Source: Alphaproteobacteria bacterium (lineage in GTDB: Bacteria > Pseudomonadota > Alphaproteobacteria > UBA8366 > Aestuariispiraceae). Taken from it: 64,000 nt of DNA. Numbering within the stretch: the first letter of the stretch is position 1; each line of letters opens with the position of its first letter. Below the pieces are notes generated by a model that was not told where the DNA came from, searched no databases, and saw only the letters and a program-made list of their open reading frames with translations. The translations under genes and the position numbers were made by a program. Location of the stretch: the NCBI GenBank assembly GCA_033344895.1, contig JAWPMN010000001.1, forward strand, positions 434,001-498,000, written 5' to 3'. Of this stretch, positions 46,328-63,997 are shown one piece after another.

Positions 46328-46340
46328 AGGAAGATGAGCC

Positions 46341-47655: not shown

Positions 47656-48819
47656 TCAGCGACCTGGCAACAGTCGATCCCGCAGGATTCCCCACAGCAG
47701 CGACAGAATGTTCAACTGGCTGCCCTCGGATGTCGCCACCTCCTCCCCGGCGAGGTGCCGACCGAGATTCCGGGCAAAGTCCGACGACAGGCGCGAGGTG
47801 AAATCCCGAACCAGGCCGGATCGCCCGAACTGGGCCAGCGGTCCGGTCAGTTTGAACCGGACTTCGATGTCGACGGCCGTCCGCTCTTCGGCCTCGGTGC
47901 GCAAGGCGTAGGTCAGCCTGCCCTGAACATTGGTTCCACTCTTTCGGTCGGTCCCTTCGCCGGACAGCGTGACACGGCGCGCATTGGCGTCGATCTGCTG
48001 GTTGACCGTACCATTGAATCCGGCCGAAATCGGCCCGAAACGGATGGTCAGGCGCCCCTCGATCCGGTCGCCTTCAATCGCGGTGACTTCCGCGCCCGGC
48101 ATGCAGCGCGCCACGGTCGACACATCGGTCATGACCTCCCAGAGAGCGTTGCGGCGCTGGTCCGCCTTCATCTCGAGAGTCAGGATGGTCCAGCCGTCCT
48201 CGTCCACACGCATGACCGGCTTGCTCACCGACGCGGACACTTCGGCCGTGCCCCGAGCACCGCTTTTCGGTTCCGCGACCTCGAAGCAGGGAGGCGGCGC
48301 GTCGGGCGCCGGTCGTACGAGTGGCCTGACCGAGGACTGGCAGGCTTTCGTATGCGACTTCGTCTCGGACACGACATCCGATATCGCTTCGACAATACCC
48401 TGATAGCCGGTGCACCGACATATGTTTCCGCTCAACGCATGACGGATACGGGACTCGTCCGGTGTGTCGAGACGGTTCACGATGTCGCGCGCCGTGACGA
48501 GCATGCCCGGCGTGCAGAACCCGCATTGCAGTCCGTGCCGTTCGGAAAATGCCTTACGCAGCTTGCTCATCGTCTGATCGTCGTCGAACCCTTCGACCGT
48601 CCGGATGTCGGCTCCGTCGCAGGCCGCTGCCAGGGCAATGCAGGAACGCCCCGGCTGTCCGTCGATCATGATCGTACAGGCGCCGCAAACGCCCTGTTCG
48701 CACCCCAGATGCGTTCCGGTCAGGCCGAGGTGACCGCGCAGGAAGTCGGCGAGATGTGTCCTGGGCTCGACGGAACCGCTTACCGGCTGCCCGTTCACGG
48801 TGAGGGTTATCGATTTCAT
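47656..48819 (-). CDS. Fused [2Fe-2S] small subunit and CoxG-like domain of a molybdenum hydroxylase
   Basis: This 387-residue protein joins two normally separate proteins. Residues 1-155 are the two-cluster iron-sulphur small subunit (CEQGVCGACTIMIDG with GRSC, then CGFCTPGM and CRCTGYQG). After a linker, residues from about 205 form an SRPBCC/CoxG-type domain (NALWEVMTDVSTVARCMPGAEV, LSGEGTDRKSG, LAQFGRSGLVRDF). In CO dehydrogenase operons CoxG is separate and helps membrane attachment. It overlaps the medium-subunit gene by four bases and carries electrons from the large subunit to FAD. Confidence 0.88.
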   Translation of the reverse strand: MKSITLTVNGQPVSGSVEPRTHLADFLRGHLGLTGTHLGCEQGVCGACTIMIDGQPGRSCIALAAACDGADIRTVEGFDDDQTMSKLRKAFSERHGLQCGFCTPGMLVTARDIVNRLDTPDESRIRHALSGNICRCTGYQGIVEAISDVVSETKSHTKACQSSVRPLVRPAPDAPPPCFEVAEPKSGARGTAEVSASVSKPVMRVDEDGWTILTLEMKADQRRNALWEVMTDVSTVARCMPGAEVTAIEGDRIEGRLTIRFGPISAGFNGTVNQQIDANARRVTLSGEGTDRKSGTNVQGRLTYALRTEAEERTAVDIEVRFKLTGPLAQFGRSGLVRDFTSRLSSDFARNLGRHLAGEEVATSEGSQLNILSLLWGILRDRLLPGR

Positions 48820-49634
48820 GACGGATAGACCTGCTGGATCGCGCGCCGCAGCGCGACTTCATGTTGGCGGTGCGAAACCGGGGTGGCGTCGGGCAAGGCC
48901 GCACGCACCGTTTCGGATAGTTTGGACAGGGCCTTTCCCCCCTCCTTCGCAAGCTGTCGGGAGAAGCCATCCAGAACGACCGGGGCGCCATCGGTCGCCC
49001 CCATGACAACGCGGCAGTAGCGCTGCTCCGGATCGACGACCAGCGCGCCGATTGCCTCGGCGAACTCACCCACCTTGCGGCAAATCTTGTAGTAGCCCCA
49101 GCGGACCATATCCGATCGCTTCGGAATGCGGACGGCCTCGATGATTTCGCCGTCGCGCAGGGCGGTGGTGAACGCGCCCTGCATGAAGTCGGTCATCGCC
49201 ACTTCGCGGCTGCCTTCGGCGTTGCGCAGGGTCAGAACGGCGTCGAGCGTGGTCAGCGTCGTCACCCAATCCGCCGCCGGATCTGCATGGGCCAGCGATC
49301 CGCCGATCGTGCCACGGGTCCGGACCGCACGGTGGGCGATGCCCCCGGCGACATAACGCATCATACCGCCTGCCGGGTCCGGAACCTTGCCGTCTTCGAA
49401 TTCAGCGTGGCGCAGGGCGGCCCCGAGCGTAAGGGCATTCGTCCCGTCCTCGATGCGGCGCAAAGCCTCCGTCCCGGCCAGCCCGACCAGGCCGGTGGGC
49501 CGAACAAGTCGCAGATTCAGCATCGGGCCCAGGGACTGACCACCGGAAATCACCTTGATATCGGTGCTCGACAGCTGGGACAGGGCATGATCGACGGTTT
49601 CCGCGGCAGCATAGTCGAAGTCGACGGGTTTCAT
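48816..49634 (-). CDS. FAD-binding medium subunit of a molybdenum hydroxylase
   Basis: This 272-residue subunit has the FAD-binding patterns KVISGGQSLGPMLNLRLV near residue 35 and TRGTIGGSLAHADPAADW near 108, typical of the CoxM/xanthine dehydrogenase FAD family. It connects the iron-sulphur subunit with an external acceptor. Four-base overlaps with both neighbours show one translational unit with the large and small subunits. Confidence 0.92.
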   Translation of the reverse strand: MKPVDFDYAAAETVDHALSQLSSTDIKVISGGQSLGPMLNLRLVRPTGLVGLAGTEALRRIEDGTNALTLGAALRHAEFEDGKVPDPAGGMMRYVAGGIAHRAVRTRGTIGGSLAHADPAADWVTTLTTLDAVLTLRNAEGSREVAMTDFMQGAFTTALRDGEIIEAVRIPKRSDMVRWGYYKICRKVGEFAEAIGALVVDPEQRYCRVVMGATDGAPVVLDGFSRQLAKEGGKALSKLSETVRAALPDATPVSHRQHEVALRRAIQQVYPS

Positions 49635-51985
49635 GCCACGGCCTCCGCGACGGATTTCGTCTCGGCCTGGATCAGGGCCTCAAGGATTCTTTCCGGGGTT
49701 GCCGGAATTCGCGTCAGTTCGACCCCTCGTTCCTTCAATGCGTCGTTGATCGCATTGACGATGGCGCCCGGCGGCGCGATGGCACCGCCTTCGCCGACCC
49801 CCTTCATGCCATGGGCGGAATAGGGGGACGGGCTTTCCATATGTCCCACCTTCATCCGCGGAATCTCGAAGGCGCCGGGCAGGGTATAGTCCTGAAGCGT
49901 GGACGCCAGCGGCTGCCCCTGGACGTCGTAGGGAGATTCCTCGAACAGGGCTGTACCGATGCCCTGGACTGCGCCGCCGATCAACTGGCCGTCGACGATC
50001 ATCGGGTTCACCATGCGCCCGCAATCGTCCACGACGGCATAGTCGAGAAGTTCGACCTGCCCGGTCTCGTCATCCACCGCGACGACGGCAGCATGGGTCG
50101 AATAGGTGAAGACGCCGCTGTCGACCTTCGGCTTGTAGCCTTCGGTGACTTCCAGCCCCATTGTGTCGACATTGTCGGGAAGCTGTTCAGGGCGCAGATA
50201 CCAGGCCTTGCCGACATCGGCGAAGCTGATGCTGGCATTCCCGGAACAGATGGCGCCGTCCTTCAATTCGACACTGTCTTCGGAACACTGCATCAGATGC
50301 GCCGCGATCCGCCGGATGCGCCGGGCCAATTCGACGCTGGCACGGGACACCGCCCCACCGGCCATGACCATGCCGCGCGACGCATATGCCCCGGTCGAAT
50401 AAGGAGTAGAGGCCGTGTCGCCCAGGGTCACGCGCACCGAATCGAAGGCAATGCCCAACTCCTCCACCGCGACCTGGGACAGGGTTGTTTCCAGCCCCTG
50501 CCCGATCGTGTGGATTCCGGCCCGGATTTCCAGGCTGCCATCCGGGGTCAGGCGCACGGTCGCCTGTTCATAGCCGGGCACCAGCGGGATACCCCAGCTG
50601 GCGAAGACCTTGGTGCCGTGAGCCGATTGCTCGGTGAAGGTGGAAAAGCCGACACCGATCCGGCGGCCATCCGGCTCACCGGCGGCCTGCCGCTTCCGCA
50701 CGCCGGCCACATCGATCAGCTCCGCGGCCATGCGCAGCGATTCCGGATAATCGCCGCTGTCATAGTGCTTTCCGGTCACGTTCGTGTAGGGCATCTGCGC
50801 TGCCTGGACGAGGTTCTCGGCACGCACATCCATCGGATCACGGCCCACTTCGCGGGCAATGGCATCGATCATCAGTTCGATCGCGAAACACACGCCGGGC
50901 CGTGCAACGCCGCGATAGGGTGTGAAAGGCGGCTTGTTTGTGGCCACTGAAAACGTCTTGCAGCGATAGACATTGAAATCATACGGGCCCGGCAGGTTAC
51001 CACCGGCCTGCGCGGCCTCCAGGCAGGCCGTGAATGGCCAGACCGAATAGGCGCCGACGCTGACCGTTACTTCGGCGTCAAGGCCGAGCAACCGGCCGCG
51101 TTCATCCGCATAGGCGGTCAGCTTGTAATGATGTTCGCGGGAATTCGCCCCGGCGGTGAGATGCTCGCGTCGGTCCTCGATCCAGCGGAACGGCCGGCGC
51201 AGCGTCATCGCAAGCCAGGCGACGCAGATTTCTTCCGGCTGCAATACGCATTTGTATCCGAAACCGCCGCCGACATCCGGGGGAATGACCCTGATCTTCG
51301 CCTGATCCAGCCCCAGCGTCTCGGAGAGGCCGGTCCGGATCATGTGCGGCACCTGGGTGGAGGTATAGACGACCAGCTGACCGGCCTGGAAATCCCAATA
51401 GGCCAGAACACCCTTGCCTTCCATCGGGTGCATGCATTGCCGACCGGTGTTCAGTTCGCGCGAAACCTTGACCGGCGCAGTCCTGGCCAGCGCGTCGATA
51501 TCACCATTCACGGCGGTCGTCAGGAAGAGGTTGTCGCCCCAATCATCATGCACCAGCGGGGAATCCGGGCTACGAGCGGCGAGACTGTCCACCACGGCGG
51601 GCAGCTCCTCGATTTCGAGATCGACCGCCTCTGCCACATCCTCCGCTTCCGCACGGGTCGGCGCGATGCACATCGCGATACATTCCCCGACGAAACGGAC
51701 CTTGTCGGTCGCCAGTGCCGGATAGTCGGAGGTCTTGAAACCGGGGATGCCGGAATTCGCGACGATCGGATTGACGCCGGTCAGGTCGGCTGCGGTGAAG
51801 ACACGATCTTCCATACCCGTTGGCTTGGTGATCCTGCGGATTTTGCCATGCGCAATGGCGCTGCGCCGAAAGGCCACGTCCGACAGGCCCGGCATCGCGA
51901 TATCGGAGACAAATCGGCCCCGCCCATGAAGATGCCGTTCGTCTTCCTTGCGGATAACCCGCGCGCCGATCCCGTCTTTTACCAT
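49631..51985 (-). CDS. Molybdopterin-binding large subunit of a xanthine-dehydrogenase-family hydroxylase
   Basis: This 784-residue catalytic subunit has molybdopterin motifs such as GGGFGYKCVLQPEEICVAWLA, TPYRGVARPGVCFAIE near residue 357, and VGEGGAIAPPGAIVNAINDAL with the catalytic Glu near the C-terminus. The active-site loop reads PYRGVAR rather than the AYRCSFR of true CO dehydrogenase, so it hydroxylates an organic substrate, typically carbon beside ring nitrogen. With 2,5-dihydroxypyridine breakdown genes on the same locus, a pyridine carboxylate (for example picolinate) is a good guess. It follows dctP by 77 bases with a strong hairpin between. Confidence 0.9.
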   Translation of the reverse strand: MVKDGIGARVIRKEDERHLHGRGRFVSDIAMPGLSDVAFRRSAIAHGKIRRITKPTGMEDRVFTAADLTGVNPIVANSGIPGFKTSDYPALATDKVRFVGECIAMCIAPTRAEAEDVAEAVDLEIEELPAVVDSLAARSPDSPLVHDDWGDNLFLTTAVNGDIDALARTAPVKVSRELNTGRQCMHPMEGKGVLAYWDFQAGQLVVYTSTQVPHMIRTGLSETLGLDQAKIRVIPPDVGGGFGYKCVLQPEEICVAWLAMTLRRPFRWIEDRREHLTAGANSREHHYKLTAYADERGRLLGLDAEVTVSVGAYSVWPFTACLEAAQAGGNLPGPYDFNVYRCKTFSVATNKPPFTPYRGVARPGVCFAIELMIDAIAREVGRDPMDVRAENLVQAAQMPYTNVTGKHYDSGDYPESLRMAAELIDVAGVRKRQAAGEPDGRRIGVGFSTFTEQSAHGTKVFASWGIPLVPGYEQATVRLTPDGSLEIRAGIHTIGQGLETTLSQVAVEELGIAFDSVRVTLGDTASTPYSTGAYASRGMVMAGGAVSRASVELARRIRRIAAHLMQCSEDSVELKDGAICSGNASISFADVGKAWYLRPEQLPDNVDTMGLEVTEGYKPKVDSGVFTYSTHAAVVAVDDETGQVELLDYAVVDDCGRMVNPMIVDGQLIGGAVQGIGTALFEESPYDVQGQPLASTLQDYTLPGAFEIPRMKVGHMESPSPYSAHGMKGVGEGGAIAPPGAIVNAINDALKERGVELTRIPATPERILEALIQAETKSVAEAVA

Positions 51986-52062: not shown

Positions 52063-53166
52063 TCAGAGCCCGTAGGGGAAGTCCAGACCGCGCGCCTTCA
52101 TGAACGCCAGTTCCGACGCATTGGTGTACGACATCACCTGTTTCCGGAAGGTCATCAGGCTGGTGTACACTTCCTTGCTCAACTCATCCGCCTCGCCGGC
52201 TTCGGCGATGACTTTGCCGGCCACATGACCCAGCGTCGTCAGCGTCGCCTCATCGAGGAACTTCATCTCGATGCCGTGCTCATCCCGCAGCGTGTTGTAG
52301 GCCTGCGCGTTCTTGGCAACGAATTCAGACAGAACCACGCTGTTCGCGGTTTCATTCGCCATCTGCACGATCGCCTTCAGGTCGTCCGGCAGATCGTCCC
52401 AGGCCTGCTTGTTGATGAAGCAATCCAGAACGCCGCACGGCTCCATCCAGCCGGGCCAGTAGCAGAACTTCGCGACCTTGTGCAGGCCGAACGCCATATC
52501 GTTGAAGGGTCCGACGAAATCGGCACCGTCAATGGCGTTGGTCTGTAGGCCCTGGGGGACTTCACCCAGCGGCATCTGAACCGGCGTCGCGCCGATTTCG
52601 CGCAGAACCTTCGCGCCCAGACCGCCGGATCGGATCTTCATGCCCTTGTAGTCGTCGATGCTGTTGATTTCCTTGTTGAACCAACCGGCCGACTGCACCG
52701 AGGTATTGCCGCTGGGCAGGAACTTCACACCCATTTCGCCGTAAATCTTGTCGGCGATTTCCTGACCACCGCCGAAGCGGAACCAGGCATTCTGTTCCTG
52801 GGTGGTGATGCCGAAGGGCAGCGGGGTGAAGAACTGCACCGCCGGCAGTTTGCCCGCCCAGTAGGCCGGATAACCATGACCCATTTCCAGGCCACCGTCG
52901 GCGACCGCATCCATCAGCTGCAGCGGCGGGGCGATTTCACCGGCACCGTAGAGCTTGATCGACAGCTTCCCGCCGGAGGCCTTTTCGACCATCTCAGACA
53001 CCATCTTCGCGCCGGTCCACAGCAGCGGCGAGTTCTCCCGCCATGTGGCCTGCATGCGCCACTGGATCTTGCCCTGGGAAATGGCCGGGGTCGACAAGGC
53101 CGTCGCCGCCACACCGCCGGCGCCCAAAGCACCTGCGGCCTTAAAGAATTGTCTGCGCTTCATCAT
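52063..53166 (-). CDS. dctP: TRAP transporter periplasmic binding protein DctP, Tat-exported
   Basis: This 367-residue binding protein starts with a twin-arginine signal, MMKRRQFFKAAGALGAGG, then a hydrophobic region ending before QGKIQWRM. The DctP pattern includes LPSGNTSVQSAGWFNKEI and MKIRSGGLGAKVLREIG with the substrate Arg, then GLQTNAIDGADFVGP. GAGGAGACA precedes ATG 53166; the frame extends antisense to 54492 without meaning. Tat export suggests folding before export. The cargo is probably the aromatic acid degraded by the adjacent enzymes. Confidence 0.9.
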   Translation of the reverse strand: MMKRRQFFKAAGALGAGGVAATALSTPAISQGKIQWRMQATWRENSPLLWTGAKMVSEMVEKASGGKLSIKLYGAGEIAPPLQLMDAVADGGLEMGHGYPAYWAGKLPAVQFFTPLPFGITTQEQNAWFRFGGGQEIADKIYGEMGVKFLPSGNTSVQSAGWFNKEINSIDDYKGMKIRSGGLGAKVLREIGATPVQMPLGEVPQGLQTNAIDGADFVGPFNDMAFGLHKVAKFCYWPGWMEPCGVLDCFINKQAWDDLPDDLKAIVQMANETANSVVLSEFVAKNAQAYNTLRDEHGIEMKFLDEATLTTLGHVAGKVIAEAGEADELSKEVYTSLMTFRKQVMSYTNASELAFMKARGLDFPYGL

Positions 53167-53191
53167 TGTCTCCTCGTTCTCCTGTTCAGTC

Positions 53192-53205
53192 GGGGCGAAC
53201 GCCCC
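53192..53205 (-). terminator. GC hairpin between dctM and dctP
   Basis: GGGGCG-AA-CGCCCC is a perfect six-pair hairpin between the dctM stop and the dctP ribosome site. With no T-run it is more likely a message-stability element that lets dctP be more abundant than the permeases. Confidence 0.4.
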
Positions 53206-53255
53206 CTCACCTTCTCCTGACCCGTCTCCGCCCTGGAGGCATTTCGCATGAATAA

Positions 53256-54638
53256 TCAGAAGAGAAGTTTCGGTAGCCAGGTCGCGATGGACGGGAACAT
53301 CCAGATCACGGCGATGGCCAGTATTTGAATGGCGACAAAGGGAATGACGCCGCGATAGATCGCCGGCCCGCTCAGACCCTGAGCGACACCTTGCAGATAG
53401 AAGATGGCGAAGCCGAAGGGGGGCGTCAGATAGCTGGTCTGCAGGACGATCGCCATGGCGACACCAAGCCAGATCGGGTCGACTCCCATGATGATCAGGA
53501 TCGGCGCGAAGATCGGCACCACGATGAAGATGATCTCGAACGTGTCGATCATGAAGCCCAGCAGGAACATGATGAACAGCACGAAGATCGTGGCCCCGAG
53601 CGCACCGCCGGGCAGGTCCGCCACAAAGTCGCGGACGACGTCGTCCCCGCCCAGCCCGCGGAAGACCAGCGAGAAGATCGTCGCGCCCAGCAGGATCGCG
53701 AAGATCATGTTGCTGATCATCAGCGTCGATTTGGAAATGTCGAACAGCAGGGCGCGGTTGAAACGGCCCTTGAGCACCCCCAGAAGGCAGGCACCGACCG
53801 CACCGACGGCAGCAGATTCGGTAGCCGTGGCAATTCCCGTCAGGATCGAGCCCAGGACCAGGATGATCAGGACCATCGGCGGGATAACCGCGCGCAGCAT
53901 CCGGCGCCCCAGAGAGCGGCGTTCCTCCTCGGACATGATGAGCGGAGGGCATGCCTTGGGATTGAGTGCGGCGCGTATCAATAGCCAGACGATATAGAAC
54001 CCGACCAGCAGCAGCCCGGGCAGCAATGCCGCCGAGAACAGATCCGTGATCGTGACCTGGGCACCGTCGAACCGACCCAGTTCCAGATTGGCCTGGGTAT
54101 TCGCGTTCTGCAGCATGATGCCGAGAAGGATCAGGACCGTCGACGGCGGGATGAGCTGCGCCATCGTGCCGGATGCGCAGATGATTCCGCCGGCCAGACT
54201 GGGATCGTATTTTGCGCGCATCATGGCCGGCAGGCTGATGAGCCCCATTGTTACCACGGTGGCGCCGACAATGCCGGTGGACGCCGCCAGCAACGCACCG
54301 ACGATGATGACGGAAATCCCCAGCCCGCCGCGCATGCGGCCGAAGGCCTGCCCCATGGTAAGCAGCAGATCTTCCGCAATCTTGGACCGCTCCAGAACCA
54401 CGCCCATGAAGACGAACAATGGCACCGCCACCAGGGTCTCGTCGGTCATCAGGCTCACGAACCTGCCCAGTATCGAGGACGTCATGCCCCACACGAACAG
54501 ATCGAACTGCGACCCGATCAGTGCGAAGAGGATCGAGACGCCGGCCAGCCCGAAGGCAACCGGGAACCCGGTCAGCAGCACGGCGAAGGTCGCCACGAAG
54601 AACAGCAGGATGAAGAGGGCGTGCATGTCCTCAGCCAT
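53256..54638 (-). CDS. dctM: TRAP transporter large permease DctM
   Basis: This 460-residue permease has about twelve membrane helices with DctM features: LTGFPVAFGLAGVSILFALIG near the start, VPLFVFMGVVLERSKIAEDLL, and GIICASGTMAQLIPPSTVLILLGIM. It couples uptake to an ion gradient. It overlaps dctQ by eight bases. Confidence 0.93.
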   Translation of the reverse strand: MAEDMHALFILLFFVATFAVLLTGFPVAFGLAGVSILFALIGSQFDLFVWGMTSSILGRFVSLMTDETLVAVPLFVFMGVVLERSKIAEDLLLTMGQAFGRMRGGLGISVIIVGALLAASTGIVGATVVTMGLISLPAMMRAKYDPSLAGGIICASGTMAQLIPPSTVLILLGIMLQNANTQANLELGRFDGAQVTITDLFSAALLPGLLLVGFYIVWLLIRAALNPKACPPLIMSEEERRSLGRRMLRAVIPPMVLIILVLGSILTGIATATESAAVGAVGACLLGVLKGRFNRALLFDISKSTLMISNMIFAILLGATIFSLVFRGLGGDDVVRDFVADLPGGALGATIFVLFIMFLLGFMIDTFEIIFIVVPIFAPILIIMGVDPIWLGVAMAIVLQTSYLTPPFGFAIFYLQGVAQGLSGPAIYRGVIPFVAIQILAIAVIWMFPSIATWLPKLLF

Positions 54639-55164
54639 GATTCGACGCCCCCTTCTCGTCGGCAGATCGCAACAGATGGATCGCGCGGATCAGGTCTGAG
54701 AGCCCCTGCAGCGAGACCAGGACACAGAAGGCCGGCACGGCCGCCTTCATCACATACATGAACGGCAGCCCGTCGATGGACGGCGACATTTCCAGACTGA
54801 GGATCGATCGCAGCACCGCATTCCAGGACGCGGTTCCAATCACGTACATCGCCGGCCAGAGCAGACACAGGACGCCGAACACCGTCACGACGGCGCGCCC
54901 ACGCTCGGTTAACCGAGTATAGAGCACGTCCACCCGGACATGCTTGTTTTCGATCATCAGATAGGACGCGCCCAGCGTGATCACGAGACCATTGAGCCAG
55001 ACGAAGCTTTCCGAGAGCCACGGGAAGCCGAGCTGAAACCCGTATCTGAGAACGACGACCGATCCGCCCAGCAGCACGATCACCGGCAGACACAGGATCA
55101 TCAGATAGCCGATCATCCGACCCATCCCGTCGATCCGGTCGGCAAGCCACAGCGCCGCCGCCAT
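54631..55164 (-). CDS. dctQ: TRAP transporter small permease DctQ
   Basis: This 177-residue protein has four membrane helices, with the DctQ motif GLVITLGASYLMIENKHVRVDVLYTRL between helices two and three. It is first of the dctQ-dctM-dctP operon, which continues into the molybdenum hydroxylase genes. A CAGTATACTG palindrome lies about 140 bases upstream. Confidence 0.9.
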   Translation of the reverse strand: MAAALWLADRIDGMGRMIGYLMILCLPVIVLLGGSVVVLRYGFQLGFPWLSESFVWLNGLVITLGASYLMIENKHVRVDVLYTRLTERGRAVVTVFGVLCLLWPAMYVIGTASWNAVLRSILSLEMSPSIDGLPFMYVMKAAVPAFCVLVSLQGLSDLIRAIHLLRSADEKGASNHG

Positions 55165-55557: not shown

Positions 55558-56067
55558 ATGGGAGCGAAAAAGGAAAAATCGGCCGAAGCCGACCAGCCGA
55601 CAACATTGCTGGAGCGGATGCCACTTTGGTCCCGGCCGGGCTTTCTCGTCCGGCGGTTGCATCAGATTCATCTCGCCCTGTTTCTGGAAGAGTGCAAGGA
55701 ATTCGACATTACGCCGGTCCAGTACGGACTTCTGACGACGCTCAAGCTGCGTCCCGATCAGGATCAGAATTCCCTGGGTCAGGAGCTGGGCCTTGACCGC
55801 ACGAATGTCGCGGATGTCCTGGTACGTCTCACCAAGCGCGGGCTCGTGGAGCGCCGCCGCAGCGAGGAGGACAAGCGGATGGTCCTCGCCCGCCTGACCG
55901 AAGAAGGCGAGAATGTTACCGAGGCCATGTACTCCGCCATGCAACGTGCGCAGGAACGTCTGCTGGAGCCATTGCTGCCACAGGAACGGAACGCTTTCAT
56001 CACCACGCTGATACGGCTGATCGACGGAAACAATCAGCACGGCAGAACCGTGTTCAAGCCGCACTGA
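55558..56067 (+). CDS. MarR family transcriptional regulator
   Basis: This 169-residue regulator has a winged helix with QNSLGQELGLDRTNVADVLVRLTKRGLVERRRSEEDKRMVLARLTEEG (residues about 70-120), the wing DEDKR-type motif being clear. Helices on either side form the dimer and ligand site. Its place between the TRAP/hydroxylase operon and the Rieske operon resembles the MarR-type PicR beside picolinate genes. Aromatic acids or their CoA esters are usual MarR ligands. It converges on the beta-subunit gene. Confidence 0.9.
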   Translation: MGAKKEKSAEADQPTTLLERMPLWSRPGFLVRRLHQIHLALFLEECKEFDITPVQYGLLTTLKLRPDQDQNSLGQELGLDRTNVADVLVRLTKRGLVERRRSEEDKRMVLARLTEEGENVTEAMYSAMQRAQERLLEPLLPQERNAFITTLIRLIDGNNQHGRTVFKPH

Positions 56068-56111: not shown

Positions 56112-56669
56112 CTAAACCGGCAGCACCAAAGCTGTCGGTATGATCAGGCTGTCGTAGACGCAAATGCGCCTGCGCAATCGCAGCGCGCCATCCCCGCCCC
56201 GCAGGAATATGTCATGATATGATCCGGCCTGGTGGATATGCGTGGTCGGATCATCGTGCAGGGTCTCCAGCACCATGTAATTGGCCCGTGCCGCAATGCT
56301 GCCGTCTTCGGAAACGCCGAGCGCCATGGTGTTGGTGACGTAGTGCCGCAGGTAGCGCGGTGCGAACATGGCGGTGTGCTGGATTGCGAAGGCGCGATCT
56401 TTCAGCATCCCCTTGCCTTCGCAATGGACCAGACCGACCGGCATGTCGTTGTCGAAATTCTCCCGCGCGGTCACGGAATAGAAGGCGTCGTCGGTGAAGA
56501 ACTCCGGCCAGGCCTGCAGATCTCCCTCATCCAGGACCAGGCTGTACTGCGCGTTGAAGTCCTCCAAATCGGCTCTTAATGCGCGCCTTTCCTCGCCCGT
56601 CGGCTCCCGGAACCCGCCAGTTCCCGCACCGGCCGCATCTCCAATGATCGGTTTCGACATGAACGACAT
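56112..56669 (-). CDS. Ring-hydroxylating oxygenase beta subunit
   Basis: This 185-residue NTF2-like subunit has the aromatic-oxygenase beta-subunit pattern FNAQYSLVLDEGDLQAWPEFFTDDAFY, RHYVTNTMALG and a closing strand GALRLRRRICVYDSLI. Its role is structural, supporting an alpha3beta3 oxygenase. ATG 56669 overlaps the alpha-fusion stop (TGATG); GTG 56672 is one codon earlier. It belongs with the 944-residue fusion as the only separately encoded component. Confidence 0.88.
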   Translation of the reverse strand: MSFMSKPIIGDAAGAGTGGFREPTGEERRALRADLEDFNAQYSLVLDEGDLQAWPEFFTDDAFYSVTARENFDNDMPVGLVHCEGKGMLKDRAFAIQHTAMFAPRYLRHYVTNTMALGVSEDGSIAARANYMVLETLHDDPTTHIHQAGSYHDIFLRGGDGALRLRRRICVYDSLIIPTALVLPV

Positions 56670-59503
56670 CACAGCCCCATTTCCTTGCGCCAGTACTCAT
56701 ACATTCCACGGATTGCCGATTCGGAAATCAGCGTATCGGAGGTTCCGGTCGGCGTCTCCGGATCGAGGGCGACAAGATGGGTCCCATCGGTGCCTCGCAA
56801 CATGCCGTCCTGAACGAACTTCATCGCCTCGTTATCCTCGAGCCCAAGGAAGCCGGCCGGCCCCATGAGATTGCCCTGCCGCAGGCGGTGCCGGGTCATC
56901 TCCTCATCGTCCCCCTCATAGCCGAACATCGTCCAGTTCATGACGAATTCGTTCGGCCCCTTCGGAACGATTTGACGAACACCCAGGGTGTTCATCTCCC
57001 GCTGGACAATCAGGTTCGGCCAGATCGTCTGCATCGTCACAGACCAGGGCGAGTCGAACTCCGGAATGAAATCCATGAATTTCGGCTCGTTCAGCTCCAT
57101 GCCGTCGCGATAGGCGCGCATTTCGCTCTTGGCTGCGGAATCGATGGACTTTCCGTCACTCTTGGCCGATGCCATCGTGCCGTGCCGCCCGGTCGCATCC
57201 GCGATCATCGCCGACTTGTTGCCGGCCACCAGCAGACCGAACGTCACCAGGAAGGTATGCAGAAGGGTCGCATGATACGGATCCTTTAGGTTCTCGTGGT
57301 ACAGCTTCCAGTTTCCCGGCACCGTGTTCCGGTAATAGCCCAGGATAGTCAGTTTGCGCCCGTCGAAGGTGGCATCGAAATCCCGCAGAATATCCGGCCC
57401 CATGTATTCTTCGATCGTTTCCATATCATCGTGGTAAGAGGCGAACACGACACCGCGCCGTGTCGTGACGTTGAGCTTGCGGATGCCGTGCTGGGTCGGA
57501 TCGAAATCCTTCGCCATGCCGCCCTTGCCGCCCACGCCACGCCGGAACGGCACGCCGCTGAGGTTGCCTTCCAGATCATAGGTCCATTGGTGATATGGAC
57601 AGACAAACTCCGTCACCTTGCCACGCTGTTCGCGACAGAACTCCGCCGCCCGGTGTGCACACCGGTTTTCGAACACGTTGACTGCACCATCCTCGCCCCG
57701 CACGACCACCACCGGCGTCGGACCGACAAAGGACCGCACGAACTGACCCGGCTCGGGGATCTCCGCTTCCAGCGCGACATAGTTCCAGGAGCGGCCGTGA
57801 AAGATGCGATCGACTTCGCGTTCATAGATGGCGTCGCTGGTATAAACCCAATCCGGAATCCGATTAAGTCCGCCTTCAGGCCAGGTGTAGTGATCGGCAT
57901 CGGCCACGGCGGTCGCTGGCTTGCCGATACAGCCGGCCGGGCGCGTTTCAAACATGTCGTCAGGCACTGGTTCTCCCCTGCTCATCAATTTGCGGGCTTC
58001 CCGTATTGCCGTCGCATCCGAGAATGCGAAGACGGCTTGGAGCCGGTTGTCGGAATCGATCTGAAAGAAGGCCGTCGCATCTCCATCCGCCTGATCTCGC
58101 CTGCGGACCGCGCCACCGGGATCCGGGATACCGAGAATCTGAATGTTCAGGCCGATCTGGTCCGACCAGAACCACGGGATTCCCTCATATCGGGTCTCCG
58201 CCCCGGCCATGGTTCGACCGGCGGCGACTGCCTGATCCTGGGCGTTCTGCCAGGATTCAAGCCGCAGCGATTGGCCTTTCGGCGCATGCGGATAGTTGGC
58301 GACGTCGCCGGCCGCGAAAATCGCCGGATCGGACGTCCGCCCGGTCGCATCGACGACAATACCACCGTCGACGGCAAGCCCGACCGCCTTGGCCAGTTCG
58401 ACATTCGGTACCGCCCCGACCCCCACGACGACCAGATCGGCCGGAACGGTCTCGCCACTCGCAAGGGATACTGCCGACACGCCGCCCGCATCGCCGCAGA
58501 ACCCGGTCACGTCGACCCCGGTCCGGACATCGACACCTGCCGCCCGGGCGCGTCTGGCCAGTTCGTCGGAAACCGGTGCGGGCAGAATTCGGGACACCAG
58601 CCGCGCATCGCGCTCCAATACGGTGACCGACTTGCCGGCCGCACGCGCGGTGGACGCCACCTCGAGCCCGATAAAGCCGCCGCCGACGACCGCGACGGAA
58701 CCTGCCTTGGCCAGGCCCTCCTTAAGGGCGCGTGCATCCGCCTGGCTGCGCAAGTACAGAATGCCGCCCAGGTCGCAGCCGGGAACATCAAGCTGCCGAG
58801 GGCGCGCGCCGGTCGCAAGCAGAAGCGCATCATAGCCAAGCGTTTTGCCATCGCTCAGCGCAAGCTGACGTGCGTCGCGGTCGATACCCTGAACGGAAAG
58901 CCCCGGCCGAAAGTCGAGCGCCAGACGGTTCAATTCCGCAGGCGAGAACAGCAGAAGATCGGATTCCGACGCTTCCCCCGTCAGGATTCCCTTCGACAGT
59001 GGCGGCCGTTCGTAAGGCGCGGACGGTTCCTCGCCGATCAGAACCAGCTTTCCGGCATATCCGGCCATCCTCGCCGCTTCGGCTGCGCGGCCGCCCGCCT
59101 GACCGGCACCGACAATGACCATGCACCGGTCATCCGCGCCCTCAGCTACCGGCGCCGCAAGAATAGATTCCTTACCGTCGCCCGCCGCCGCGGGGCGGTC
59201 CGGGTCGATGTAGACCTCACCCGCGTCCACCTTGGTCAGGAATGTCGGCAGATCCTCTGTGACGGGGGCGCCTTGCGCCTTGCCTGTGCGCACGCAGAAG
59301 CGGCCCTGATGAAGCGGGCATTCGATGCAGCCGTCCTCAACGAACCCGTCGGACAGGATCGCCACCTGATGCGTACAGACGTCGCCGATGGCAAAGACCT
59401 CTCCATCCAGCCAATACAATGCAATGCGCTGACCATCGACCGTCAGCGGCAGAATTTTACTGCTGCGCACCTCATCCAGCGTCGCAACACGCACCCAAGC
59501 CAT
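56669..59503 (-). CDS. Triple fusion: Rieske ferredoxin, FAD ferredoxin reductase and Rieske oxygenase alpha subunit
   Basis: This is one uninterrupted 944-residue frame. Residues 1-105 are a Rieske ferredoxin (Cys43-x-His45, Cys62-x2-His65). Residues 126 to about 510 are a ferredoxin reductase: FAD motif GAGQAG at 132-137, NAD motif GGGFIG at 274-279 and the second FAD contact AAGDVANYPHAP. From about 535 follows an anthranilate/salicylate-type oxygenase alpha subunit: Rieske Cys615-x-His617 and Cys635-x2-His638, iron site His744 and His749 with bridging Asp741 (LKDPYHATLLH). Electrons could run from NADH to the iron centre within one chain. The beta subunit is encoded next. The pathway genes nearby suggest a hydroxypyridine carboxylate as substrate. 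Confidence 0.92.
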   Translation of the reverse strand: MAWVRVATLDEVRSSKILPLTVDGQRIALYWLDGEVFAIGDVCTHQVAILSDGFVEDGCIECPLHQGRFCVRTGKAQGAPVTEDLPTFLTKVDAGEVYIDPDRPAAAGDGKESILAAPVAEGADDRCMVIVGAGQAGGRAAEAARMAGYAGKLVLIGEEPSAPYERPPLSKGILTGEASESDLLLFSPAELNRLALDFRPGLSVQGIDRDARQLALSDGKTLGYDALLLATGARPRQLDVPGCDLGGILYLRSQADARALKEGLAKAGSVAVVGGGFIGLEVASTARAAGKSVTVLERDARLVSRILPAPVSDELARRARAAGVDVRTGVDVTGFCGDAGGVSAVSLASGETVPADLVVVGVGAVPNVELAKAVGLAVDGGIVVDATGRTSDPAIFAAGDVANYPHAPKGQSLRLESWQNAQDQAVAAGRTMAGAETRYEGIPWFWSDQIGLNIQILGIPDPGGAVRRRDQADGDATAFFQIDSDNRLQAVFAFSDATAIREARKLMSRGEPVPDDMFETRPAGCIGKPATAVADADHYTWPEGGLNRIPDWVYTSDAIYEREVDRIFHGRSWNYVALEAEIPEPGQFVRSFVGPTPVVVVRGEDGAVNVFENRCAHRAAEFCREQRGKVTEFVCPYHQWTYDLEGNLSGVPFRRGVGGKGGMAKDFDPTQHGIRKLNVTTRRGVVFASYHDDMETIEEYMGPDILRDFDATFDGRKLTILGYYRNTVPGNWKLYHENLKDPYHATLLHTFLVTFGLLVAGNKSAMIADATGRHGTMASAKSDGKSIDSAAKSEMRAYRDGMELNEPKFMDFIPEFDSPWSVTMQTIWPNLIVQREMNTLGVRQIVPKGPNEFVMNWTMFGYEGDDEEMTRHRLRQGNLMGPAGFLGLEDNEAMKFVQDGMLRGTDGTHLVALDPETPTGTSDTLISESAIRGMYEYWRKEMGL

Positions 59504-59709: not shown

Positions 59710-59766
59710 TAAATCCAACTCTTGAACCTTGCCAGTCCTGAGCAAGACCAACACAGGGAGGTACGG

Positions 59767-60747
59767 ATGCGACATAGGGGAAGACGCCGACAGGACAGGA
59801 CGGCGCGCAGCGAGATTGGGCTGTACGGCATTTCGCAAGGCAGCCTCGAACTCGCCTTGCTGAAGGCCGTATTCGACACGGCGAACACGTTTGCGAGGCA
59901 CCGTCTGTTTGCACTCCGAAACGCCGGCACCGGTACCTATACAAGTGACATTTCCAGACTGGATGCATGTTTTATTGGCGGTGCCAGTGTCTCCGACGCC
60001 GCAGCGCCCGTTGCGGTCCGCAACGCCTACGATCTGAGGCGCCGCTCGGAGATCCTGCTCGGCATCGGATATGGGGCATTCACCTTGACCGCGGCGCGGC
60101 TGACCGACGGCACGAATACCGCCGTCCACAAGAAGGACCTTCCCAAGTTTCGCGAGCTTTTCCCCTTCTCGCCCTACAGCAACGCGCTGATAGAATGGAA
60201 CGAGCGATTGGTCACCTGCGCCGGCGGCATGGCAACAACCGAGGCGGCGCTTATGGTCGTCGAAAGAGTTGCCGGTCGCGCAATTGCCGGCGATGTGGCG
60301 GGCAGCCTGCTCTACCACCGAAACCGATTCACGCTGACGGGTCAGACATTGGCGGTGCCCGAACCGGCATCCCGAAGCGGCGACATGATGGGGCGCTTGG
60401 CAGAACTGCTGAGGGATCATGTCGAAACGCCCCTGTCGACGGAAGAGATCGCCGACCGTCTGGGCGTATCGATCCGGACACTGCAACGACTGGTGAAGCG
60501 GCGTCTGGATTGCACACTGATGGCGTACTACAGGCAAATTCGGCTGGAACATGCGAACTGGATGCTGCGCGAGACGTCGAACAGCATTTCCACGATCGCT
60601 GCCTCCACCGGATTCCCGTCGCATTCGAATTTCACCCGCCAGTATCGGACGGCCTACGGCGTGTCGCCTAGCGTCGTGCGACGCCGGGCGCGAAGCCAGT
60701 CGGTCACGCCCCGCGCGGCGACGGCGGCAATTCAAGTGCTTCGGTAA
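59767..60747 (+). CDS. AraC family regulator with GlxA-like N-terminal domain
   Basis: This 326-residue regulator has two C-terminal helix-turn-helix units (LSTEEIADRLGVSIRTLQRLVKRRL and NSISTIAASTGFPSHSNFTRQYRTAYGVSP) and an N-terminal part that follows the DJ-1/PfpI-like domain of GlxA regulators (SRLDACFIGG, GIGYGAFTLTAARLTDG, NERLVTCAGGMATTEAALMVVER). The usual Cys of the TGA elbow is absent, as expected for a non-catalytic sensor. AGGGAGG before ATG 59767 fixes the start. Divergent from the Rieske fusion, it probably activates that operon. Its end overlaps the convergent nicF gene by 44 bases. Confidence 0.85.
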   Translation: MRHRGRRRQDRTARSEIGLYGISQGSLELALLKAVFDTANTFARHRLFALRNAGTGTYTSDISRLDACFIGGASVSDAAAPVAVRNAYDLRRRSEILLGIGYGAFTLTAARLTDGTNTAVHKKDLPKFRELFPFSPYSNALIEWNERLVTCAGGMATTEAALMVVERVAGRAIAGDVAGSLLYHRNRFTLTGQTLAVPEPASRSGDMMGRLAELLRDHVETPLSTEEIADRLGVSIRTLQRLVKRRLDCTLMAYYRQIRLEHANWMLRETSNSISTIAASTGFPSHSNFTRQYRTAYGVSPSVVRRRARSQSVTPRAATAAIQVLR

Positions 60748-61348
60748 GCGTCAGGAGGCACGCGTTCTTCTGCTCCATATCGAACAGATTGGCGTTGTGC
60801 GGCTCCAGGGCGCGGTCCCCGACACAGTCCGACACGACGATCGGACGGAAGCCATGGGACATGGCATCGACCACACTGGCCCGCACGCAGCCGCTGGTGA
60901 CCGCCCCGGCGACGAACAGGGAAATCACCCCGCGCTGCGCCAGCCAGGGCGCCAACATCGTACCGAAGAAGGCCGACGGCACGGTCTTGCGCACGACCAT
61001 TTCCCCCGCGACAGGCGTCAGTTCGTCGACGATCTGACTGGCGGGCGACGCCTCTTTCAACTTCAGCAGGTTCGGCACCTTGGCCGAAAAGATATTGGCG
61101 TCGGAATCGTCATCGGCATAGACGATCCGGCTGTGCGCAACCGGCCATCCGGCCCGGCGCGCATGGGCCAGCAAGGCTTCCGTCTGCGCGATGGCGGGCC
61201 GGATATTGCCACCCCCGAACATCTCCGGATCGGCGAACCCGTTCACGAAATCCACGATCAACAGCCCGTAGGGCGGGACAGGTTCCAGCGATTGGCCGAA
61301 GCCCTGCTTCCGGTACGGCACCAGCGTTTCACTCGCCGCGCCACTCAT
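60704..61348 (-). CDS. nicF: Maleamate amidohydrolase, isochorismatase family
   Basis: This 214-residue cysteine hydrolase has catalytic triad Asp33 (LIVDFVNGFAD), Lys121 (VVRKTVPSAFFGT) and Cys154 (TSGCVRASVVDAM). In this operon it should hydrolyse maleamate to maleate and ammonia, as NicF does in nicotinate breakdown and PicF in picolinate breakdown. The start overlaps the nicX stop (ATGA). Family members also include N-carbamoylsarcosine amidases, but context is decisive here. Confidence 0.88.
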   Translation of the reverse strand: MSGAASETLVPYRKQGFGQSLEPVPPYGLLIVDFVNGFADPEMFGGGNIRPAIAQTEALLAHARRAGWPVAHSRIVYADDDSDANIFSAKVPNLLKLKEASPASQIVDELTPVAGEMVVRKTVPSAFFGTMLAPWLAQRGVISLFVAGAVTSGCVRASVVDAMSHGFRPIVVSDCVGDRALEPHNANLFDMEQKNACLLTLTEALELPPSPRGA

Positions 61349-62385
61349 GCCGCATCCTCCACCACGCGTCCTTCGATCACGACCGGCGTACCGTCCAGTT
61401 CGACAGTGCAGTTCCGTAAGGGGATATCCATGTGGCAGGCCGTCGTGCGCGTGCCCCCGGCCTCGTTGTTCGGGCCCAGCGAGAACAGGAAGTTGCCCTC
61501 ATAGGCGCGGGCATCCATCGCGATCGTGGCCTCCCGGTCGTAAAGGCCCAGGGTCGACCATTTCGCCCGCGGCTGCAGCCCCCAGCCGATATGGGACATG
61601 GCATAGGCTTCCGGATCGTTGAAGCTGGCCATGTATTCACGCAGCAGGGCCGCGTCGACACCGCCCTCGATCTTGGTCGCGAAGCCGTTCTCGATGGTCA
61701 GGATGATCGGATCCTGCACATAGGATTTCTGCGGGATCAGGATGTCGCCGCGATCGATGACGATGGTCCCGTTGCTTTCGCCCTCATTGGGAAAGGTGAA
61801 GGTGAAGCCGCTGGGCCAGTGATCCCAGCGCCCCGGCTCGTCCACGAACCCATATTCCGCGATGGCCGGAAAATCACCGATCCTGAATGTGACGTCGGTC
61901 CCAGCGGCGGAGGTCGCACGCATGGTGCGCGCTGCCTCGATCCGGGCCTTTGCCTTCAAGACACGGGTCTTGTCCGCCTCGGTCGGCAGGATACGCGCCA
62001 GCACCTCCGGCGGCTCCACCGCCAGCAGGATCTTCGTACCGGTCTTCAGGATTTCGATCTGTTCCGGCGAGAACAGCAGGGTCATCAGGTCCAGGACCAG
62101 GTCGCTGGCCTCCAGGGCGGAGATCGCAGCCTTGTTGCCGGTCAGCGGCGTCTCGCCCAGATAGGCCAGCGCGTCGCGGCTCAACGCCTTTTCCCCGTTC
62201 ACCGGGGGCAGATCGATCTGACAGACGATGGCCCCCATCGACTGGGCGGCGATCTTGGCCGTCGACAGGTTTTGCGGGTGGGTATTCACGCTGGTCAGAA
62301 TGGTCACGGTCTGCCCGGCTTCCAATCTGGACAGGCGCAACACCTCCTTCCAGGCCTCGATCATCTGAAAATCGGCTATCGGCAT
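61345..62385 (-). CDS. nicX: 2,5-dihydroxypyridine 5,6-dioxygenase
   Basis: This 346-residue iron(II) ring-cleaving dioxygenase converts 2,5-dihydroxypyridine to N-formylmaleamate. Sequence stretches match Pseudomonas putida NicX as I know it (AVEPPEVLARILPTE, EPGRWDHWPSGF, SHIGWGLQPRA, CHMDIPLRNC), and the iron ligands His265, His318 and Asp320 fall at the same numbers. It follows nicD and overlaps nicF. Finding it fixes 2,5-dihydroxypyridine as the central intermediate of this locus. Confidence 0.95.
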   Translation of the reverse strand: MPIADFQMIEAWKEVLRLSRLEAGQTVTILTSVNTHPQNLSTAKIAAQSMGAIVCQIDLPPVNGEKALSRDALAYLGETPLTGNKAAISALEASDLVLDLMTLLFSPEQIEILKTGTKILLAVEPPEVLARILPTEADKTRVLKAKARIEAARTMRATSAAGTDVTFRIGDFPAIAEYGFVDEPGRWDHWPSGFTFTFPNEGESNGTIVIDRGDILIPQKSYVQDPIILTIENGFATKIEGGVDAALLREYMASFNDPEAYAMSHIGWGLQPRAKWSTLGLYDREATIAMDARAYEGNFLFSLGPNNEAGGTRTTACHMDIPLRNCTVELDGTPVVIEGRVVEDAA

Positions 62386-62406: not shown

Positions 62407-63228
62407 TCAGGCGACCGCCGCGCCGAGGAAATCGCCCAGCGCCCGGTACAGCCCTTCTTCGTCATCCCATGGAATCATGTGCCCGGCGTCGGTCACGGTC
62501 GCGGATTGCAGGGACGGCATCAGCCCTCGCAATTCGGCTTCGTCCTCATCCAGGATCACCCCGCCCTTGCCCGCTCGAATCAGCAGGGTCGGCTGATCCA
62601 CATGCGGAAAATCGCTGTGGAAATCGGTGGTATGGAACTCCTCGAAACTCTGGCGGATCGCCCGTGCGTCGCAGGTATGCAGCCATTCCGCCCGCAGCCG
62701 CAGTTGCTCCTCCGTCCAGGTCGGGCAATAGGCGCGCATCGCGTCATGATCCATGCCCAGGACCGCCTCTGCGATACTGTCCATGTACCAGGGCAGCTTC
62801 GACGGATACTCGCGACGGCCCGGTCCGGAAACCGGCGGGTCGACCAGCACCAGCCGCGTCGGATGCCCGGGGTGACGGCGGGCCGCCCGCATCGCGATGC
62901 GCCCCCCCATCGAATGACCCAGAATGCTATAGCGCTTTAGACCAAGGGCCTCGGCAAAGGCGACGACATCGTCCGCCTGGGCATCCAGCCCATAGTCCAG
63001 ATCATCCGACGCTTCCGACAGACCGCGGCCGCGGACATCCAGGATATAGGTGTCGAAGGTCCGGCCCAGTCTTTCGCCGACGAAGCCCCAGGTTATGGCC
63101 GGGCTGGTAATGCCCGGCACCAGAACGATCGGATCCAGATCCGAACGGACGCTTTCGTCGGCATAGCGCAGATAGTGCTGCCGGATGCCGTTTGCGCGGA
63201 CATTGCCGCCATATCGGTAATTGCTCAT
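62407..63228 (-). CDS. nicD: N-formylmaleamate deformylase
   Basis: This 273-residue alpha/beta hydrolase removes formate from N-formylmaleamate to give maleamate. The triad is Ser106 (LGHSMGGR), Asp130 (LVLVDPPVSGPG) and His250 (DAGHMIPWDD), and long stretches such as ANGIRQHYLRY and VPGITSPAITWGFV match NicD. It lies between nicE and nicX in pathway-consistent company. Confidence 0.95.
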   Translation of the reverse strand: MSNYRYGGNVRANGIRQHYLRYADESVRSDLDPIVLVPGITSPAITWGFVGERLGRTFDTYILDVRGRGLSEASDDLDYGLDAQADDVVAFAEALGLKRYSILGHSMGGRIAMRAARRHPGHPTRLVLVDPPVSGPGRREYPSKLPWYMDSIAEAVLGMDHDAMRAYCPTWTEEQLRLRAEWLHTCDARAIRQSFEEFHTTDFHSDFPHVDQPTLLIRAGKGGVILDEDEAELRGLMPSLQSATVTDAGHMIPWDDEEGLYRALGDFLGAAVA

Positions 63229-63244: not shown

Positions 63245-63997
63245 TCAGTAGGCGCCGGACAACAGCGCCCCGCCCCCCGGCGCGCGGCGTTCCAGGCCCA
63301 GTTCCTTCAGCATCGCGTAGGTCGTGGCGATGGCGGCGGTCACGACCGGCTTGCCGGTACGCGCCTCAACCTCCTCAACCGCGGCCAGGGACGGCATCTG
63401 CACGCAGGCCGACAGGACGACGGCATCGACGTCCGCGGTCTTCAGACCGGACACGATTTCCGGCAGGTTCGACGGGTCATGGCGCCCGACATCCAGATTG
63501 TTCGGGATCTCCAGCGCCCGCCAGTCGCTGACTTCATAGCCTTCGTTTTCGATATAGCCGACCACGGTCTCGGTCAGGGGCTTCATATAGGGGGCGACCA
63601 GCGCGACCTTCTTCGCGCCCAGCACGCCGAGCGCGTCGCATAACGCCCCGGCCGACGTGACAACCGGCGCCGCCCCGCCATTGTCTACGGTCGCCTGGTG
63701 CAGGCGCGCCTGCGATTCCCGGTGATAGCCGTGCCCCATGGACATGATCGCCACGAGGCAGGCGTAACCCATGACGTCGACCCGTGCGTCCGATAGTTCC
63801 AGCGCGCAACGGTCCGACTGCGCATCCATCGCGGCCAGTTCCTCCTTCTTCACCGTCATCATGCGCATGCGGCTGGAATGGAAGGTAAAGCGCTCCGGCA
63901 GAATGACCTGGCGTGCATTCAGGATTGCCGGGATTTCGGTTTCCATGGTGGTGTTGGAGCTCGGGACGATCTGCCCGATCCGGTAGGATTTCTTCAT
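63245..63997 (-). CDS. nicE: Maleate cis-trans isomerase
   Basis: This 250-residue member of the Asp/Glu racemase superfamily isomerises maleate to fumarate. The start YRIGQIVPSSNTTMETEIP and the two catalytic cysteines Cys80 (MGYACLVA) and Cys198 (LSACVQMPS) are typical of NicE/MaiA. It is the first visible gene of nicE-nicD-nicX-nicF and starts three bases from the window edge; further genes, perhaps a decarboxylase, may lie upstream. Confidence 0.95.
   Translation of the reverse strand: MKKSYRIGQIVPSSNTTMETEIPAILNARQVILPERFTFHSSRMRMMTVKKEELAAMDAQSDRCALELSDARVDVMGYACLVAIMSMGHGYHRESQARLHQATVDNGGAAPVVTSAGALCDALGVLGAKKVALVAPYMKPLTETVVGYIENEGYEVSDWRALEIPNNLDVGRHDPSNLPEIVSGLKTADVDAVVLSACVQMPSLAAVEEVEARTGKPVVTAAIATTYAMLKELGLERRAPGGGALLSGAY

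Follow-up and report, generated by a model that had tools for sequence, protein, structure and literature searches.

The need for multi-component electron delivery restricts the use of Rieske oxygenases. PicB, the monooxygenase of picolinate degradation, is reportedly a four-component enzyme (attributed to Qiu et al. 2019). As far as the available part of PMC10142695 goes, the picolinate pathway proceeds through the dehydrogenase PicA, the monooxygenase PicB, PicC, and then PicD, PicE, PicF, and PicG, with PicB encoded by separate genes, picB1B2B3B4. Here, we analyze a 64,000-nucleotide stretch (the window) of contig JAWPMN010000001.1 from an alphaproteobacterium of the family Aestuariispiraceae, in which a single gene encodes a Rieske ferredoxin, a flavin adenine dinucleotide (FAD)- and nicotinamide adenine dinucleotide (NAD)-binding ferredoxin reductase, and the alpha subunit of a Rieske oxygenase in one chain. 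This chain, whose parts all belong to known families, is real and conserved; it represents a new form of three-component Rieske oxygenase and is most likely a fused PicB. A 2025 perspective states, in the portion available, that self-sufficient systems of Rieske oxygenases have yet to be identified (PMC12445004). Among the matches listed in our literature searches, which covered open-access papers but neither subscription papers nor preprints, none describes such a fusion from nature; architecture databases may list uncharacterized ones. The fused gene, its parts, and the adjoining beta subunit gene are as follows (SD stands for Shine-Dalgarno).

56669..59503, minus strand: ferredoxin-FAD/NAD reductase-alpha fusion gene (picB-like), 944 amino acids (aa), ATG start at 59503, no internal stop
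59204..59503, minus strand: Rieske ferredoxin domain, residues 1-100; Pfam Rieske at 3-88, ligands C43, H45, C62, and H65
59123..59203, minus strand: linker 1, residues 101-127, variable
57956..59122, minus strand: BphA4/AndAa-type FAD/NAD ferredoxin reductase domain, residues 128-516; Pfam Pyr_redox_2 at 128-425, Reductase_C at 444-516
57965..57967, minus strand: candidate internal GTG start (V513), weak, with SD-like AGGGGAG just upstream; per-linker p 0.37
57884..57955, minus strand: linker 2, residues 517-540, variable; possible internal alpha start in most relatives
56672..57883, minus strand: Rieske oxygenase alpha domain, residues 541-944; second Pfam Rieske match, Ring_hydroxyl_A at 726-942
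56112..56672, minus strand: beta subunit, separate gene; Ring_hydroxyl_B

A sequence-only reading of this DNA had proposed a single 944-residue frame with the complete domain order, intact redox sites, and a separate beta subunit, and all of this holds. The frame is open from 59503 to 56669 on the minus strand, a strand that the earlier reading did not name; Pfam detects Rieske twice and places Rieske, Pyr_redox_2, Reductase_C, and Ring_hydroxyl_A over their respective cut-offs; every residue listed for the two Rieske centers, the FAD and NAD motifs, and the mononuclear iron site is present; and the beta subunit is encoded by a Ring_hydroxyl_B gene at 56672-56112, whose start overlaps the fusion stop codon as TGATG. 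Rieske clusters are typically held by a CxH...CxxH motif and the mononuclear iron by a 2-His-1-carboxylate site, with an Asp bridging the two centers. The N-terminal Rieske ligands, the Rieske ligands of the alpha domain (C615/H617/C635/H638), and its iron-site residues (H744/H749/D890 plus D741) are each kept in 23 of 23 fused chains, and the D741-x2-H744-x4-H749 motif together with D890 would form the iron site. Two GxGxxG nucleotide-binding motifs are found at 132 and 274. Among the 26 key functional positions checked, 25 are invariant in all 23 chains, the sole varying one being the third FAD glycine (Gly in 8 chains, Ala in 15). At the sequence level, one chain carries every redox center of the path that runs from NAD(P)H to the iron activating oxygen. 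The best solved relatives of the reductase domain are the reductases 3fg2, 1q1r, and 1d7y, with putidaredoxin reductase and biphenyl dioxygenase reductase structures among its matches, and the closest one for the alpha part is the salicylate 5-hydroxylase alpha subunit (7c8z; E value of 4e-126).

The 23 distinct fused chains taken forward include the window and 22 further loci whose frames are open through both junctions; a match to the beta subunit adjoins each of these 22. The window's family has full-length fused frames in 5 of its 14 genomes, and all 5 belong to the window's genus, which is represented by 6 genomes; family f135 has such frames in 4 of 4 genomes and family f171 in 7 of 149. 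In larger samples, they are found in 5 of 385 genomes of the window's class, in 3 of 398 of its phylum, and in 1 of 369 of the class Gammaproteobacteria, namely, G591, the genome for which that class was sampled; all these samples overlap, and several include the window's own genome. A scan of genome contigs returned 7 relatives, each matched over residues 1-944: five Alloalcanivorax/Alcanivorax records, one metagenome-assembled genome (MAG) of Saccharospirillum, and CP051228.1. The latter (L015) is a MAG named Mesoflavibacter (Bacteroidota) that has the same coordinates as a genome of the window's genus (G011) and matches the window cluster at 77-98%, so that its name looks wrong. Matches occur in 77 plasmid records, and in 4 of these a single place spans 80% or more of the query; a plasmid of Paracoccus seriniphilus carries an intact fused frame, those of Acidovorax DW039 and Caballeronia SBC2 encode separate genes, and the fourth is from Caballeronia SBC1. 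The layout is thus present in two proteobacterial classes, Alphaproteobacteria (Paracoccus) and Gammaproteobacteria (Alloalcanivorax). A phage search at E values of 1e-40 or below gave no match. The alpha region has ten further matches elsewhere in the own genome of the window, with identities of 26-34%; one of them, at 40675-41769 of the window (minus strand), encodes a Rieske/Ring_hydroxyl_A protein of 364 aa.

Architecture was typed for 60 of 111 sequences (110 loci plus the window). The remainder comprises 34 shorter or duplicate copies of places that the set already covers (e.g., L038 of L090, L052 of L083, and L019 of L098), the own-genome paralogs L002-L008, the neighbor stretch L009, and nine less closely related alphas (L041, L043-L047, L050, L059, and L061). 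A tree of the alpha part, built by a quick method from 58 rows after dropping L090 and L110, which have no alpha, brings all 23 fused chains together with 4 ferredoxin-alpha fusions and 2 alphas that stand alone (L088 and L089) in one branch, with a Shimodaira-Hasegawa-like approximate likelihood ratio test (SH-aLRT) support of 99. This branch sits within a 40-row branch (support 100) that also holds unfused alphas of picolinate-type clusters. The sister group of the fused clade is poorly supported (10 and 25), and the fused label takes 3 changes on this tree, owing to the 6 other forms inside the clade. A careful method applied to 32 rows of ferredoxin plus reductase gives a tree in which the 23 fused chains lie on one side of a branch supported at 97/96, the order of branches within the clade differing between the two trees. 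Because both trees give one clade, the fusion probably arose once, and several independent fusions of the whole chain are not favored.

The likely source is an operon with the same order of genes. In unfused Variovorax clusters, the genes for ferredoxin, reductase, alpha, beta, PicC-like protein, NicX, and NicF follow one another in that order, so that ferredoxin-reductase-alpha-beta matches the domain order of the fusion. On the Caballeronia sp. SBC2 plasmid (L023, 11983-14859), the ferredoxin, reductase, and alpha frames share a reading frame and are separated by stops; loss of stop codons would therefore be a sufficient route to the fusion. The shared frame also accounts for a false full-length fusion in the translated search: by tblastn, SBC2 looked fused, but it has three stop-separated frames and is not counted as such. 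Caballeronia SBC1, which looks fused by tblastn only, was left out of the count as well. The linkers are short and variable across the relatives; by our own counting points, linker 1 has 21-40 residues and linker 2 has 27-43. The picolinate and 2,5-dihydroxypyridine cluster described below, the clade of at least 23 loci, and the surviving unfused operons of the same order all go beyond the sequence-only reading.

In four loci of family f171 (L084-L087), the ferredoxin is joined directly to the alpha without a reductase, in open frames of 511 to 616 aa, the 511-aa one (L084) being cut by a contig end. In the alpha tree, these loci nest inside the fused clade. No substitute reductase was detected by Pfam among 10 neighboring proteins of L085-L089, which are part of their neighbors and include none of L084, and in the six f171 draft genomes of L084-L089, at E values of 1e-30 or below, the only reductase homologs are 31-38% identical to the reductase domain of L105. 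The simplest reading of these data is one fusion event, spread by horizontal transfer, and a subsequent loss of the reductase part.

Purifying selection acts on the domains. For the window and its 86% relative L015, the ratio of nonsynonymous to synonymous substitution rates (dN/dS) is 0.09 for the ferredoxin, 0.15 for the reductase, and 0.02 for the alpha, with 0.21 and 0.29 for the linkers. All three domains are well under 1 in 8 of 9 pairs, those with usable dS; in the window-L091 pair, synonymous sites are saturated. Over the pairs, the ratio ranges from 0.04 to 0.29 for the ferredoxin, from 0.07 to 0.18 for the reductase, and from 0.01 to 0.14 for the alpha, whereas the linkers, with 20-27 codons, give values from 0 to 0.63 and one undefined. 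The electron-transfer arms evolve faster than the alpha, but with ratios well below 1, they have been kept functional.

The surroundings of the fused gene point to its function.

47656..51985, minus strand: three-subunit molybdenum hydroxylase, PicA-like by context ([2Fe-2S] subunit at 47656-48819, FAD subunit at 48816-49634, Mo subunit at 49631-51985)
52063..55164, minus strand: tripartite ATP-independent periplasmic (TRAP) transporter; Pfam DctP, DctM, and DctQ
55558..56067, plus strand: MarR-family regulator, downstream of the fusion
59722..60747, plus strand: AraC-family regulator, divergent from the fusion gene
60704..61348, minus strand: maleamate amidohydrolase-like (NicF/PicF), isochorismatase family; 3ot4/3uao, E value of 9e-88
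61345..62385, minus strand: 2,5-dihydroxypyridine 5,6-dioxygenase (NicX/PicD); 7cn3, E value of 2e-125
62407..63228, minus strand: N-formylmaleamate deformylase-like (NicD/PicE); 4l0c "Deformylase," E value of 4e-85
63245..63997, minus strand: maleate isomerase (NicE/PicG); 4fq7, E value of 2e-109
C1:498016-498984 (C1, the window's own genome), just past the window end: amidohydrolase-type decarboxylase, the PicC candidate

The NicE-, NicD-, NicX-, and NicF-type genes lie upstream of the fusion on the same strand. The 3ot4/3uao chain is labeled only as a putative isochorismatase, and we take this type of match to be NicF. PicA is presumably a molybdenum enzyme. The TRAP transporter possibly takes up an aromatic acid. 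Next to the molybdenum hydroxylase, at 45215-47618 on the plus strand, there are a gene of the mandelate racemase/enolase family and then one for a class III aminotransferase. The window cluster contains a candidate gene for every pic step named in the available part of PMC10142695, and PicR also belongs to the MarR family, judging from the title of a reference in that paper. Within the stretch examined around each fused locus, a PicC-like gene and at least two nic genes are found at 12 of 23 loci, the large subunit of a molybdenum hydroxylase at 17 of 23, and a MarR match, for which no identity threshold was set, at 21 of 23. Only the beta subunit gene is seen at L017 and L097, where both stretches end at a contig end. 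In L094-L097 (f135) and L100-L105 (f171), the fused oxygenase is located beside a molybdenum hydroxylase and a MarR regulator in all but L097, and the stretch examined has no lower-pathway genes for picolinate; the substrate of these relatives may differ.

On this basis, we favor, with reasonable though far from full confidence, the view that the window encodes a naturally fused PicB, i.e., an NADH-dependent Rieske monooxygenase acting as 6-hydroxypicolinate 3-monooxygenase, with reductase, ferredoxin, and alpha in one chain and a separate beta. Its substrate and self-sufficiency, as well as cofactor loading, intramolecular transfer, and oligomeric state, are what we infer from the sequence; self-sufficiency appears plausible. 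In such an enzyme, the fusion chain would assemble with the separate beta, probably as alpha3beta3, and electrons would pass from NADH to the FAD of residues 128-516, to the N-terminal Rieske cluster, and on to the Rieske cluster of the alpha domain, from which they would reach, via D741, the mononuclear iron (H744/H749/D890), either in the same alpha or in a neighboring one. There, 6-hydroxypicolinate and O2 would give 3,6-dihydroxypicolinate, with R843 holding the carboxylate; decarboxylation by PicC would yield 2,5-dihydroxypyridine, and NicX, NicD, NicF, and NicE would take it to fumarate. R843, which is kept in 23 of 23 fused chains, is aligned to Arg 342 in chain 7c8z and to Arg 309 in 7vju; by offset counting, these correspond to R323 in NagG and R309 in terephthalate dioxygenase. 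In the available part of PMC9060491, the picolinate, anthranilate, and salicylate enzymes are grouped with terephthalate dioxygenase and share a conserved carboxylate-binding Arg, which is also conserved in hydroxypicolinate 3-monooxygenase. R843 is therefore a probable substrate-carboxylate Arg.

Several observations weigh against this assignment. Because internal starts are possible, some alphas may lack the arm, and the existence of ferredoxin-alpha fusions means that a tethered reductase is not indispensable. The four f135 genomes have no NicX match at E values of 1e-30 or below and no PicC match at 1e-60 or below, and of 6 fused f171 genomes, 3 have no NicX, 2 have only 35-37% matches, and 1 has a 68% match; with some fused relatives outside picolinate clusters, the clade need not share one substrate. 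Finally, the AlphaFold2 model (8-row alignment) has a predicted local distance difference test (pLDDT) score of 43.9, too poor for domain geometry.

Among the alternatives, the likeliest, which we rate clearly below the fused PicB, has the gene give two products, the fusion and a free alpha from an internal ribosome site, which would form mixed hexamers or leave the fusion mainly as a donor in trans to alpha-beta. Of the 23 fused genes, 21 have an in-frame ATG that precedes the alpha reference point by 5-23 codons and has an SD energy of -5.9 or stronger, at positions close to the candidate starts of unfused alpha genes. The 28 linker ATGs average -7.05 kcal/mol, versus -2.77 for 482 other in-frame ATGs (Mann-Whitney p of 6e-11, but the rows are related), and when codons are recoded synonymously, linker sites have a median p of 0.17 and the 482 controls one of 0.74. 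In addition, on Paracoccus seriniphilus plasmid p420573, where the frame of L022 (14845-17811) runs without interruption through the three domains, the PLSDB gene table, which by design is not complete, gives the alpha only, starting exactly at the internal ATG 16567; the fusion is hidden there because the ferredoxin-reductase part has no listed gene. However, acidic codons, which resemble SD sites, are abundant in the linkers, and recoding gives p values of 0.05 or below in only 6 of 23 cases, all of them in two lineages, Alcanivoracaceae and Saccharospirillum. A conservative within-linker test that takes the worst case per lineage yields Fisher p values of 0.012 for ATG and 0.17 for ATG/GTG/TTG. 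The window and L015 have no SD-ATG near the alpha and carry a GTG instead, with SD energies of -8.3 and -9.4; an initial view of the window gene as devoid of any internal start was dropped on account of this GTG and its SD-like site. Dual products are thus a hypothesis for which these data are suggestive only. The description of the locus in the sequence-only reading as a one-polypeptide system stands as regards ferredoxin, reductase, and alpha on one chain, but it overstates the case because the beta is separate and a free alpha may also be made.

A broader scenario, which we put forward tentatively and hold to be less probable than its negation, is that these loci form a clade of natural, nearly self-sufficient Rieske oxygenases with one origin and horizontal spread. 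Most members would retain an internal start that sets the ratio of armed to unarmed alphas in a mixed hexamer, the window lineage would have lost the ATG and would equip most, if not all, of its alphas with an electron chain of their own, and some sublineages would later have shed the reductase while the ferredoxin stayed tethered.

A slightly less likely alternative than two products combines the same fused electron chain with another substrate: a pyridine acid or hydroxypyridine whose conversion ends in 2,5-dihydroxypyridine, such as 6-hydroxynicotinate or a pyridine dicarboxylate derivative, and, in relatives without NicX and PicC, some other N-heteroaromatic acid. The nearest enzymes use several aryl carboxylates, the f135 genomes and several f171 ones lack close counterparts of the lower pathway as described above, and among solved structures, the PicC candidate of the window is nearest to gamma-resorcylate and 2,3-dihydroxybenzoate decarboxylases. 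The coverage of every pic step in the window, as those steps are named in the accessible part of PMC10142695, and the location of unfused relatives in the same type of cluster argue for picolinate instead. An improbable option is that the fusion is functionally neutral, with other ferredoxins and reductases of the genome delivering most electrons in vivo and the tether conferring no self-sufficiency. The own genome does encode a stand-alone reductase homolog (42%; C1:240415-241596), and the reductase domain is missing in four loci nested in the clade, but both arms are under purifying selection, their ligands are kept in 23 of 23 chains, and the layout spans two proteobacterial classes. An assembly or sequencing artefact joining separate genes, the refuting outcome named in the sequence-only reading as a frameshift or assembly join, has nothing in its favor and can be dismissed, as the window's genome assembly is a single 4.64-Mb contig and 22 homologous loci have the same open frame, which excludes error or chance in practice.

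The fused PicB that we favor belongs to a clade that offers evolved fusions with their linkers, a series running from separate genes through ferredoxin-reductase-alpha to ferredoxin-alpha, and a likely substrate, which makes tethering in an alpha-beta Rieske enzyme directly testable. Compared with the class of alpha-beta Rieske oxygenases that use a Rieske ferredoxin and a GR-type reductase, the iron and Rieske motifs and the beta subunit are all present, whereas the electron-transfer parts, separate polypeptides in that class, are here joined to the alpha. The nearest counterpart is PicB of Alcaligenes faecalis JQ135 (picB1B2B3B4), compared here by context: the likeness lies in the decarboxylase, the lower pathway from 2,5-dihydroxypyridine, the MarR regulator, and, by inference, the molybdenum hydroxylase, as well as in the carboxylate Arg reported for its alpha in the available part of PMC9060491. 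The JQ135 enzyme takes four genes, whereas here one chain matches three component kinds. Anthranilate 1,2-dioxygenase (AndAa/AndAb/AndAc/AndAd) provides the best NCBIfam match for the reductase, ferredoxin, alpha, and beta parts. However, the AndA models describe separate proteins, the neighbors here are pyridine-pathway genes, and a true AndA enzyme was rejected because the scores fall under the equivalog cut-offs (404 versus 750, 336 versus 650, 112 versus 150 bits for the ferredoxin part with AndAb, and 126 versus 230 bits for the beta with AndAd).

Salicylate 5-hydroxylase (7c8z) and terephthalate 1,2-dioxygenase (7q04 and 7vju) are the nearest solved alphas and share the aligned carboxylate-binding Arg; both rely on separate electron-transfer proteins and act on benzenoid substrates. 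BphA4 and putidaredoxin reductase are likewise FAD/NAD reductases with a C-terminal Reductase_C domain, but they are stand-alone enzymes, whereas here this module is the middle domain of a longer chain. As in the self-sufficient P450s of the CYP116B and CYP102 families, which are heme enzymes without a beta partner, the oxygenase and its redox partners are carried on one chain. The same likeness and the same differences extend to LumU, as described in the available part of PMC12746152.

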